The notes under the pieces are model-generated. The model was not told the origin of the DNA and did no database searches. It saw only the letters and a program-made list of their open reading frames with translations. From contig CM034601.1 of NCBI GenBank assembly GCA_020091685.1, positions 15,396,972-15,460,971 on the forward strand: a stretch of 64,000 nucleotides of DNA, given 5' to 3'. The DNA is from Lutjanus erythropterus. Taxonomy: Eukaryota > Chordata > Actinopteri > Lutjaniformes > Lutjanidae. How positions within the stretch are numbered: position 1 is the first letter of the stretch; every line of letters begins with the position of its first letter. A program made the position numbers and the translations under genes. Below are positions 37,482-54,534 of the stretch, piece by piece.

Positions 37482-37585
37482 CGAGTCAAACACTAGAGAG
37501 GCTCCTCTGATGCTTTCATTGAGACATCACAGAAACTTTCCAAGGTGATCCCACAGTTTTCCAGTTCCTCCTCTTCCTCATTCTC
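37482..37585 (-). other. jakmip2: jakmip2 5' UTR part of exon 2
   Basis: 104 nt between the acceptor (tgatag|GAG at 37585) and the ATG. It carries most of the spliced upstream ORF and a second, out-of-frame upstream ORF of 21 codons (37516-37581). Confidence 0.8.
37493..37585 (-). CDS. Spliced upstream ORF of jakmip2, 3' part
   Basis: If the leader exon at 54517 is joined to this exon, ATG at 54534 reads across the junction (GAG|GAG). It gives a 36-residue peptide beginning [15 protein letters not shown], then ITLESF and MKASEEPL, ending at TAG (37493-37495), 11 nt before the jakmip2 ATG. 30 of the 36 codons lie here. The composition is highly acidic. Whether it is translated is unknown; it may act as a translational regulator. 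Confidence 0.5.
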
Positions 37586-38861
37586 CTATCAGACAAAAGG
37601 GCTTAGGAGGCGGAGGAGAGACAAAGAGAGACAGACCGAGACATAAGACAGACTGCACAGGTGACATAATTGAGACTTTGAGTATGTGTAGATTAACCTG
37701 CGCTCCACATAAAATATGTGTATCAGAAGATGTATGTAAGAACTGTAGTCTCTAATTCTGATAAAGAAATCTTTTGTATTTAAGAATTACTGTAGACATT
37801 CATTTCTGAAAGTGCACACACACAAAAAATCACCACAAAAAAGACAACCAGCATTATTCATACAATCGCCCAACCCGAATGTGAAGCCACAAGGTATCAT
37901 TCCCTGTCAGAGAATTAAATGCTCATGCATACCTCCAGTTTATTGTAGACAGGTGCATAGGAGGAAAATCCATGGGCAAAAGAAGAGAGTACTCCAGCAC
38001 ACTGTCCTTAACATCAGGTAAAGCTTCGGTCTCAGGACCACTATGTTTCATCTAAAAGTTTACTGCAAGTACAGTGTGCACGAGTTCTCTCATCATTCTC
38101 TGTCAACTGCTGCTGGGGAGAGCAACATACTTACAAACTGTCTTACTGCATCACCATGAATTAACACTGACAGGAAAAAGTTAAATACTTGAACTGCTTG
38201 GGACAATGAGATTGACATCAAAGGTAATATTACTCTTGGTACTGTCTTTGCGTTTTCCTATGAGGTGTCTTCCTTTCTCTGAGATGGTAAGCTCTGTATT
38301 TAAACCATTTATATTGCTTAATAGACCCGTGTGGGTGAAACCTTTTAAACTACTCATCCAGGAAGATCGCCATTGATAAGCTTTTCTGAACTGCTTACAT
38401 TCACTAGACACACACCAAGGCAGACACAGGGTTTGGGTAGATTTTAGAGATAGATACTACCTTGTCATAGGTGTTGCAGGGATCAGCCAAATGTACCACC
38501 ATCAGATTGTATTGTTAAATATATTGTCTGGGATTTCCTGACTTCTATTCACCTTTTGTTGTCCGTCAGACCTGTTGATTAGCCCAGCCAACAGCCATTT
38601 GTTTCAGTCTACTCTTTCTTATATGCTATAGTGGCTTGGTCTCAATGCCCATGTTTTTAGAAGAGGTTTCTTGACAGCTGTGAACTTTCTCTTTTATAAG
38701 ACACATCACTCTACAATCAGCCTTTTACCTATACATTCTCCTTTGCTAGTAAAAAAGAGCATCTCAAGTTTTAAACTCTTTATTAATGGAGAAATCTATA
38801 CCATTTTTACTATGATAAATCATAAAATGATCATATGTCATTTGAGAATTAAAGAAGCACT

Positions 38862-39008
38862 GAGGCTGTGAGTCCTCTGCAGTGGCTGTGGGTTCGACTC
38901 CTGCCTATGCTGCATGTCATTCCCCCACTTTCACTCCCCCCTTTCCTGCTTCAGCTATCTTATAACATTAAATGCATAAAACCCCCACAAAATATCTCTA
39001 AAAAAAGA
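38862..39008 (+). mobile_element. tRNA-derived SINE, copy 1 (5'-truncated)
   Basis: 'gaggctgtgagtcctctgcag', a B-box-like 'gggttcgactcc', then 'ctgcatgtcattcccccactttc' and an A-rich tail. The same order is found in the fuller copy at 56267. The A box is missing. Confidence 0.75.
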
Positions 39009-39099
39009 GACCCTTGCTTCTCTACCATCAACACTACAGCCACGGTGTTCTTTGAAATTTCTGTTCCGGCCCCTAACTTGTAGTTTTGTTTGCCCATTT

Positions 39100-39375
39100 G
39101 ACATTAATTAGAGATCGAATAAATGCCGAATGTTTGCTGAATGAGTAAAGGTCTGTTTATGAGTCATAAGAAATCATCAATAATCTTGTAGAAGGAGTAG
39201 ATCAGCAATATGTTAATGAAGTCTTGCAGCTAAAAGGCAGTTTCTAAGCTCAAACTCCAGAGTGTGTATTTTCTAAGCAGCAGGCTTTTGCTCTCAGGAT
39301 AACTTTATATTGACAGACAGCTGAGAGTTATAAAAAGTTGATCAGTTTACAGTGCAGGACTCATCGTCACTTGTC
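39100..39375 (+). repeat. ~450 bp interspersed repeat, copy 2 (truncated)
   Basis: Shares 'gaatgagtaa...gtttatgagt.ataagaaatcat', 'tgttaatgaagtct' and 'caaactccagagtgtgtatt' with copy 1 (1424-1893). The distal half (the 'cctgcagcctgcct' part) is missing. Confidence 0.75.
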
Positions 39376-51460: not shown

Positions 51461-52816
51461 GTGACTGACCAATCACAATTTGATGTTATTTTAGCCATTT
51501 ACAGTGAGTGTTTGACCTTTTGATCTTCCTTAGAAGTCTTTTTAAAGCATTAACTTGTTGTGCATTACAGCTGAAATCCTACTTAATGCTTCATGTAACA
51601 GCTGATTGCATCAATGAGATTTTCTACTGATGCTAGATGAGCAATAATACATGGAGAAAAATATATCTGTGAAACTATATGACAATGTACTGCAATGCTA
51701 CAGGACCACATAGCAGGCAGGTGCCACCTTTGCTCAACAGGCTCTGAGTATCACAGAGGACCACTTAGACGTGTCACGTTCTACAATGTAAAACAAATTA
51801 TGGCAAATTTGTAATACTAACTGCTCCAATCAAAAGACGGTAAACATCATTGCCACATATGAATCCTGTTGCCTGACATTATCTGGTCCATTACTGTGAC
51901 AATAAACCTTTTTCACTGCAGCCATATCAATATGAAGCAGTAGGGTAAAAACTAGAGCCCAATATTGGTCAACCAATATCATCAGCCTCATACTGGCCTA
52001 TCACAGCCATACCAGTGTATATTTGTATAAGCATATTTGTTGTGCAATGTGTGCTGATATGAAAACTTAAAATCATCAGTAATAGACCCCTCGGTCAACT
52101 GAGATTCTTCAAGTCGATGAGTGTTTTTTTTTCTCTTTGTCAGCCACTGTGCTTCACAATAACAGGATAAAACATATAAAGCTTCCAAAATGCACAGTGA
52201 TAACATTTCAATGAGGAAATATAAATAAGGGGAATCATAAATAACATTTACATTAACGCTGACTCTCAAAATGACCACAAAACACAAAACTAACTGAGAT
52301 GGAAGGAGACAGGAGTGATAGAAACGGACCGCAGGTGACACGCTGTTAGCCACTTTATCCCAGCGCACCGCAGAGCTGCACCGAAATGTTATAAATAAAC
52401 TAAAGGGGAATGAACACTTTTACTTTCTCTGAATATATGAAAACTCTGATTATATCCAATGTTTTGACACCACAGATGATGAAGATTTTTTTTTAGTGCT
52501 ATTTAATTTAGTTTTCTATTCATAATTATGATTATTAAAATGCTGGTGACAGTTTACTGTTTCAGTGTCCTGACATAACTTTGGACAATAAATTTTTATG
52601 AACTGTAAGATATGCCTCCATTACAGATCTTTGTCACAAGTGTTTGATAACATCATTGCAAGAAATGTGCATTTACATATATTCTGTATAAGGAATGTCA
52701 GCAGTTACATGAACATTGGAACTTTTCTGCACTCTAATATCAGTTTCAGTGTCAGAAATCCAGTATCAGTTCTCATAGCTCTCATAAACACAGTTGTTAG
52801 CAGTGATATTAATTAA

Positions 52817-52917
52817 GGTCCCGTTCCATTAAGTGTAGCAGAGCCTTGCAGTGCCAGTGACCCAACATGGACATGAGCAGCACCATGACTCTGATTGGCC
52901 TGTAATGGAACGGAACC
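52817..52917. mobile_element. 101 bp miniature inverted-repeat element
   Basis: The left end 'ggtcccgttccattaagt' and the reverse complement of the right end, 'ggttccgttccattacag', are inverted copies. It abuts the next element with a 2 bp overlap. Confidence 0.6.
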
Positions 52918-53542
52918 AGTGTGTAGAATTTAGTGTTGTGTAGCAATGAGCTTGCAGAGTGCAAACACCTAGTCTCACCCTCCCCTTCTAAGGAGAATGT
53001 AGGAGAACCTTCTGTGGCCACATTACTTTGGAAAAATATGAAAGGAAGAATCTAGAACCAGTGTTTGGTTTGTCCATTCTGAGCTACGGTAGAAACTAAG
53101 CCTGCATTTTTGCATCACAATGTTCATTTTTTACTGAAGTAAACTATTAAAATCATGATAATGTGACATTTGTTGGTGTCCAAACAGACATAGTTTTCTT
53201 CCATCTGGAGAACAAGACTTGTAGGCCAGGGCATCTCTGCAGCCCTACAGTAAATCATTATAATGCTCATTATATGGTTTGACTATTGTATTTGGCAATA
53301 TTGCAATCTCCACTGTGTAATTAATTGTGCAGCCCTAGCAGAAACACAACTTTTTAACATGGCGGCCTCCTTGGAAGTGGACTCCTGACTTCTGTAGACA
53401 TGAACAGCTCATTAAAAGGTAAAGAAAACCTAATAATTGTTATTTTCAGGTGAATATACATGAATGAAACCATGCTTATGAATATTATATTCCATTTCAG
53501 CCATATTCTGCCATTAAATCCTAGTAAATTTTACACACTGGA
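52916..53542. mobile_element. ~627 bp MITE with TIR CCAGTGTGTAGAATTTA
   Basis: The left end CCAGTGTGTAGAATTTA and right end TAAATTTTACACACTGG are near-perfect 17 bp inverted repeats. The interior ('ggagaaccttctgtggcc', 'gtgtttggtttgtccattct', 'acatggcggcctcc') matches a repeat I know to be abundant in percomorph fish. A second repeat with 'ctgcagccct...tgcagccctagc' seems inserted around 53240-53340. Confidence 0.85.
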
Positions 53543-54516
53543 CCTTACTTTGTATCACTGATAACACCTGTGTTTACCTTATTTCATGTCAACATGGCTG
53601 ATGTGCAAAGGTCTAATGACACATTTGAATCCCCTTGTAGTAATTTATCAAACCTTATTCCGGTCATATCATCCGTTTGCTTCGTTTTGCTCCATCAATG
53701 TGTGCTATTGAACATTTCTTCTTTCTGCAATTAAATCCATAAACTATTAACTAGCCTACATCTGTGCTGACCCCAGTGTGACAAATGCCTTCCCAGCAGG
53801 GGTGATGTGTGTTGAATCAGGCCAGTGTAACACCCCGAGGCAGTTGCAGGCTTCAACAGCAGACTCTGTGCCTCAGTCTGGAGGCCCTGCCAACCCACTG
53901 ACTGTACCACAGTATGCTCCTGAAACATCACTGCAGCATCCTCTCAAAACACGTCCAGTAATGTGTGATGATGACCTGTCAAGCAGAAGGAAAAAAAAAA
54001 AATGCACATACTGCATCTGGCATCTGGCTTTACCTGAGGCACAGGCATCACCAGCTGGAAGCTTCACTGCACAACAAGTAGGGTTATCTAAAGCCTACCA
54101 GCCGCAGAGATACACACAGACGATGCTCGGTGCAGCGTGTGTAAGATGGGCCTGCATGGCGATGAAAATCCCAAAGCGGACACAAGCTCCATCCTCGTCA
54201 TCTTGGAGGAGCTTGCTAGTGTAGGCCGAGCTCTGCCACTTCCGACATGCAGGCTAAACCAAAGCTACACACGCGAGTAGGACAAGATTTACGGTTTTAT
54301 ATTATCGTGCACGATAATGACACACATTGACGTAATGTTACCTTAATGGTTCAAAGCGGCATTGGCGTAAAAAACAATCTGTAATCTCGCATCGCTGCTG
54401 ATTGAGATGATCAACCTGACTCAAACCAACAGGCCCGCTAGTCCCAGTAACTCCCAGTTCAGACGATGTTAAACCCCAGCAGCAGCAGGATTTACGCACG
54501 GCTTTCTTCACCTTAC

Positions 54517-54534
54517 CTCGTAATCGATGCTCAT
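54517..54534 (-). CDS. Spliced upstream ORF of jakmip2, 5' part
   Basis: ATG AGC ATC GAT TAC GAG, then the donor. Codes MSIDYE and continues in frame at 37585. The ATG has A at -3, a better context than the jakmip2 start (T at -3). Confidence 0.5.

Follow-up and report, generated by a model that had tools for sequence, protein, structure and literature searches.

Upstream open reading frames (uORFs) of vertebrates are described in a section heading of PMC4890304 as modestly repressive on average, and in the available text of that study repression in human, mouse and zebrafish is stronger with a better initiation context and with a smaller distance to the coding sequence (CDS); fewer uORFs than expected end in the last ~100 nucleotides (nt) ahead of the CDS, a depletion that is strongest in zebrafish. 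The case considered here comes from a window of 64,000 nt, the whole stretch of Lutjanus erythropterus DNA that was analysed, situated on contig C11 of a 937.6-Mb genome. The minus strand of the window carries a jakmip gene, labelled jakmip2 below, and the leader of this gene holds a 36-codon uORF if two predicted exons are joined. The sequence is as observed and makes an ordinary uORF; only the acidic tract of its peptide is unusual, and the peptide itself is unproven.

With the ordinary repressive uORFs of vertebrates, as far as the available text of PMC4890304 describes them, the jakmip2 frame shares an ATG-to-stop course within the leader, a purine at -3, a position near the CDS and a predicted lowering of CDS translation, while it differs in its gap of 11 nt and in its unusually acidic peptide. 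Conserved-peptide uORFs form a second, rare class: in zebrafish 156 were kept as such among 39,616 uORFs in 14,453 of 25,206 genes, and 8 of 17 human ones tested acted in a sequence-dependent manner (PMC7530721, available text). Coding-like codon statistics over the whole frame are common to these and to the jakmip2 uORF, but the animal class is defined by conservation across orders and here only one genome was read. The third relative is intrinsic ribosome destabilization, for which relatively high discontinuation is reported with two reporter ORFs carrying six Asp or Glu among their N-terminal 11 residues (PMC9718836, available text). The uORF peptide is alike in this density (six of the first 11 residues by eye; nine of residues 4-15) and so has the N-terminal Asp/Glu-rich stretch by which the phenomenon is recognised in sequence. 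Destabilization was, however, seen on coding ORFs, in yeast and in a human-factor cell-free system, whereas the jakmip2 frame is a predicted uORF; the sole uORF mentioned in the available text of PMC9718836 is a stalling control, a different mechanism. No report of this uORF came up among the papers listed in literature searches on the gene, although a supplementary list may hold one, and JAKMIP is not named in the main text of PMC7530721.

The predicted spliced leader

A sequence-only reading of the window had proposed that a strong donor joins an acceptor just ahead of the jakmip2 start and thereby creates a uORF. The letters, the frame and the initiation contexts are as it claimed, and the use of the junction in vivo is predicted from site scores. 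Joining 54517 to 37585 on the minus strand yields an ATG-started frame of 36 codons that crosses the junction in phase 0. The donor reads GAG/GTAAGG at 54517/54516 and the acceptor TAG/GAG at 37586/37585, the slash marking the exon boundary. The stop, TAG at 37495-37493, is separated by 11 nt from the main ATG, which begins at 37481; there is A at -3 of the uORF ATG and T at -3 of the main one, and the peptide is acidic, with seven Glu among residues 1-13. If 54517 joins 37585, the spliced leader therefore contains the whole frame, from ATG to stop, ahead of the main ATG, as the generic definition of a uORF has it. The elements concerned are as follows.

54517..54534, minus strand: 5' part of the uORF at the end of predicted exon 1 (ATGAGCATCGATTACGAG, MSIDYE), from the sequence
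37493..37585, minus strand: 3' part of the uORF including its TAG, from the sequence
37353..37481, minus strand: start of the jakmip2 main ORF with its first coding segment, translated from the sequence
54508..54516, minus strand: predicted donor, GTAAGG preceded by GAG, score 6.75
37586..37607, minus strand: predicted 3' splice site TAG with first exon base 37585, score 2.06, rank 182 of 4195
37602..37625, minus strand: competing 3' splice site AAG with first exon base 37601 and a longer pyrimidine tract, score 5.47

All splice scores come from a simple model the weights of which are textbook approximations. The description of the donor as strong is borne out, since it ranks ninth of the 3813 minus-strand GTs of the window and is the second best donor of the 37.7-64 kb interval. 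The three windows richest in CpG within 37.6-64 kb surround it, at 54.1-54.7 kb, and a weaker second CpG peak is found at 61.1-61.6 kb; donor score and CpG peak together support a predicted first exon at 54.5 kb. The acceptor is weaker: of six other scored acceptors of the gene (range 1.17 to 11.23, exon boundaries read by eye) 37585 beats two and loses to four. Furthermore, the site at 37601, 16 nt upstream, has the highest score among the sites listed between 37.47 and 37.95 kb. The two differ in kind, with the better core at 37585 (TAG/G) and the better pyrimidine tract at 37601 (AAG/C), and either may be the one used. A tandem-repeat scan gave one weak array, in the pyrimidine tract at 37616-37653. 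A second copy or retrocopy of the exon 1 and exon 2 DNA, which might have proved the junction, was sought in the genome, and the window alone matched.

The leader is rich in other ATGs. Four precede the uORF in 54800-54517 (266 nt examined), at 54707, 54625, 54577 and 54572, and exon 2 alone holds three before the main ATG, at 37581, 37527 and 37519. Their frames, by translation, are these.

54531..54707, minus strand: 58-codon ORF sharing frame and stop with the 13-codon ORF
54548..54625, minus strand: 25-codon ORF MLRSQAEEAILFRERSMSWTRFHTD, in which the in-frame ATG at 54577 gives nine codons
54531..54572, minus strand: 13-codon ORF MDTVSHRLGLRTR in the strong context GTCATGG
37516..37581, minus strand: 21-codon out-of-frame ORF overlapping the uORF in exon 2, with A at -3 and contained in exon 2 whichever first exon is used
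37493..37519, minus strand: internal ATG of the uORF frame, giving MKASEEPL, present with any first exon

The ATG at 37527 is in frame with the 21-codon ORF and gives MSQ. The TGA shared by the 58- and 13-codon ORFs overlaps the ATG of the 36-codon uORF (ATGA), and likewise the stop of the 21-codon ORF overlaps the ATG at 37519. The earlier statement that nearly all ribosomes should meet the 36-codon uORF first is not supported, as four ATGs precede it, that at 54572 in an arguably better context; the statement would need a transcription start between 54572 and 54534.

A candidate cis-acting brake

The uORF is probably, though by no means surely, an ordinary cis-acting element of an ATG-rich leader which lowers the amount of jakmip2 protein made per mRNA, in a mostly peptide-independent manner. 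If exon 1, at 54.5 kb, is joined to 37585, scanning ribosomes arriving at 54534 would begin translation, end it 11 nt short of the main ATG and seldom initiate again. Nonsense-mediated decay may add to this, and is favoured by the usual distance rule for such decay, as 140 nt separate the uORF stop from the exon 2 end (37353). The outcome would be less jakmip2 protein from each mRNA, mostly whatever the sequence of the peptide. Of the two roles proposed by the sequence-only reading, translational brake or real micropeptide, the first is made plausible by position and context (A at -3, the 11-nt gap, the distance of the stop from the exon end); for the second there is only composition, and this is located in a purine tract.

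Several results favour such a reading. The first is the frequency with which junction-spanning uORFs arise by chance: in 5000 dinucleotide-shuffled leaders, each made of the 200-nt end of exon 1 and the exon 2 leader, such a uORF stopping before the main ATG was present in 4287 (86%), and one of at least 36 amino acids in 46%. As 86% of shuffled leaders hold one, the existence of the ORF is not in itself evidence of function. The second is the lack of a counterpart in the paralogues, where no similar ORF was found by peptide search, motif search or eye near either of the two start exons, jakmip3-like (L003, contig C20) and jakmip1-like (L004, contig C8); an exon lying further upstream might still carry a diverged copy. 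The third is the presence of the three further exon 2 ATGs. The donor score and CpG peak, the commonness of uORFs in zebrafish and the unremarkable codon score outside the purine tract point the same way. At the jakmip1-like locus (L010, C8) a possible exon following CTCTCTCTCTAACAG, at most ~260 nt upstream of the ATG, contains several ATGs, some soon followed by stops, and the jakmip1-like leader may thus be ATG-rich as well.

The acidic run itself may best be read as a by-product of a splicing signal. Purine-rich (GAR) exonic splicing enhancers are a known class of exonic elements, and the run is encoded by the following tract.

37565..37585, minus strand: purine tract GAGAATGAGGAAGAGGAGGAA, exonic-splicing-enhancer-like, with 26 purines in the first 30 exon bases

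The tract, a candidate enhancer, resembles the known class in being a GAR-like stretch of 21 nt at the very start of the predicted exon 2, where a weak acceptor follows an intron of 17 kb. A GAR pattern written post hoc, after the tract, has one match in the window, the tract itself, against 0.01 expected. An enhancer here would help the weak acceptor and, by accident, be read in the GAG/GAA frame as acidic residues.

Several results weigh against an ordinary uORF. Codon usage was scored against a reference of 25 of 30 kinase loci (6059 codons; five with internal stops were left out), and the uORF reaches +0.27 in frame, its two other frames giving -0.62 and -0.59. None of 253 control ORFs equals the score of the whole frame; these span 28-60 codons and come from the large intron and the upstream region of the window and from sequence flanking two paralogue loci. 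Of 3000 stop-free shuffles, only 26 score as high. With the codons of jakmip2 itself the values are +0.33 against -0.43 and -0.17, a score as high being found in 30 of 5000 dinucleotide shuffles; this scoring was demoted from the main test because jakmip2 is Glu-rich. A coding-like score over the whole frame counts against the brake reading because an accidental uORF need not show it. The 11-nt gap is also kept despite the depletion of uORF ends near the CDS, as given in the available text of PMC4890304, and the uORF may therefore be selected. Finally, the 54517-37585 splice is itself predicted, and 37601, which would break the 36-codon frame, outscores 37585.

If expressed, the uORF could restrain production of a protein linked to the Golgi and the centrosome (PMC12732012, available text). 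In human brain JAKMIP2 is among 70 genes with an mRNA-specific quantitative trait locus (QTL), which colocalises with a schizophrenia signal, the authors warning of false negatives (PMC10592607, available text). Such a QTL fits post-transcriptional buffering without pointing to a uORF, and the main text of that paper does not mention uORFs.

Weighing the alternatives

The coding-like score speaks for a view that we regard as tenable but unlikely, in which selection acts on the 36-residue peptide itself, be it a micropeptide or a nascent chain that affects the ribosome. Its 11 Glu were reached in none of 3000 stop-free shuffles and its Glu fraction in none of the control ORFs, and the GC content at codon positions 1, 2 and 3 is coding-like (0.53/0.28/0.58). 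The earlier description of the peptide as far from random is correct for this Glu content, but extends neither to the existence of the ORF nor to the rest of the peptide: with the acidic tract removed, the last 22 residues are equalled in score by 1658 of 3000 shuffles and by 19 of 253 control segments. Nothing is special about the choice of synonymous codons, which 24 of 253 controls match, and the signal that looks coding-like comes from the purine tract only. The lack of a counterpart near the paralogue start exons, the absence of any Pfam match of the peptide and the rarity of the conserved-peptide class also speak against selection on the peptide. In the PDB its best match, a ribonuclease inhibitor (E 2.8), is at chance level, and a second genome match (L007, E 2.28) shows no JAKMIP motif and was taken as chance. 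Two of the control ORFs, MCFVDLEKEFDLVPRG and MDEIRPEYFKSLDVVGLSWLTHLCNIAWQLGTVPLDW, from the intron or upstream part of the window or from L009/L010, presumably resemble fragments of reverse transcriptase of long interspersed elements.

It is similarly doubtful that most transcripts lack the 36-residue ORF altogether, using 37601 or a different first exon and carrying other, shorter uORFs in the leader. The longer pyrimidine tract and higher score of 37601 would favour this, as would strong donors at 41374, 47665 and 46239 and the second CpG peak. AAG/C is, on the other hand, a poor acceptor core compared with TAG/G, the score of 37585 falls within the range of the other scored acceptors of the gene, and the best CpG windows are those around the 54517/54516 donor.

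A regulated choice between the two acceptors, switching the leader between a long uORF with an 11-nt gap (a strong brake) and a short one allowing easier reinitiation, seems quite improbable. Both sites are present, 16 nt apart, together with both predicted uORFs, and use of 37601 would change the uORF to MSIDYEPFCLIGE, of 13 residues, with a gap of 96 nt to the main ATG. Pairs of AG so close together easily arise by chance, however, exon 2 keeps its ORFs of 21 and 8 codons in either form, and both junctions are predictions.

Least credible, and very unlikely indeed, is an abort switch in which acidic residues 4-15 would destabilise the ribosome before its tunnel is filled, causing many of those that initiate at 54534 to fall off the message and braking jakmip2 in a peptide-dependent manner, the choice of 37601 removing the acidic stretch, relieving the brake and coupling splicing to translation. 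The acidic uORF would, if expressed, provide a natural test case for regulatory use of nascent-chain ribosome destabilisation.

The host gene and its surroundings

Assignment of the host gene to the JAKMIP family follows from a JAKMIP_CC3 domain (PF16034) found by Pfam search in frame at 24392-24664 (E 2.7e-11, 44 bits against a cut-off of 30.2) and from a JAKMIP2-type N terminus; neither the N-terminal part nor the last exon had a Pfam match. The main ORF begins with MAKKGRT, which is similar to MSKKGRN, our own translation of a JAKMIP2 cDNA primer printed in PMC12732012 (available text). The gene is labelled jakmip2 because of this resemblance and because two other members of the family are found elsewhere, on C20 and C8. 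In part the label, like the presumed naming of members as 1, 2 or 3, also depends on human sequences. A weak fourth match of the JAKMIP2 N terminus (L005, E 8.63) likewise shows no JAKMIP motif and was taken as chance.

Scans of viral and prokaryote contigs gave no confirmable JAKMIP relative, and therefore no contaminating vertebrate DNA that could stand in for an orthologue, and a plasmid tblastn search gave no match. A bacterial-type promoter scan, a composition profile and the leader fold yielded nothing decisive on the uORF. The far end of the gene is probably represented by one further segment.

19083-19352, minus strand: C-terminal end of the jakmip frame, as an open reading frame

Beyond it, a minus-strand ORF at 2659-3075 begins MAERRGNWDKAEDDLPVYLARPGTADQVPRQKYGGLFCSVEGAFESKTIDFDALSVGQRG. 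It has no Pfam match, and its one PDB match was weak and fell on a different protein (E 0.031). We take it to look like the first exon of the long isoform of DPYSL3 (CRMP4), presumably the same gene that neighbours JAKMIP2 in human.

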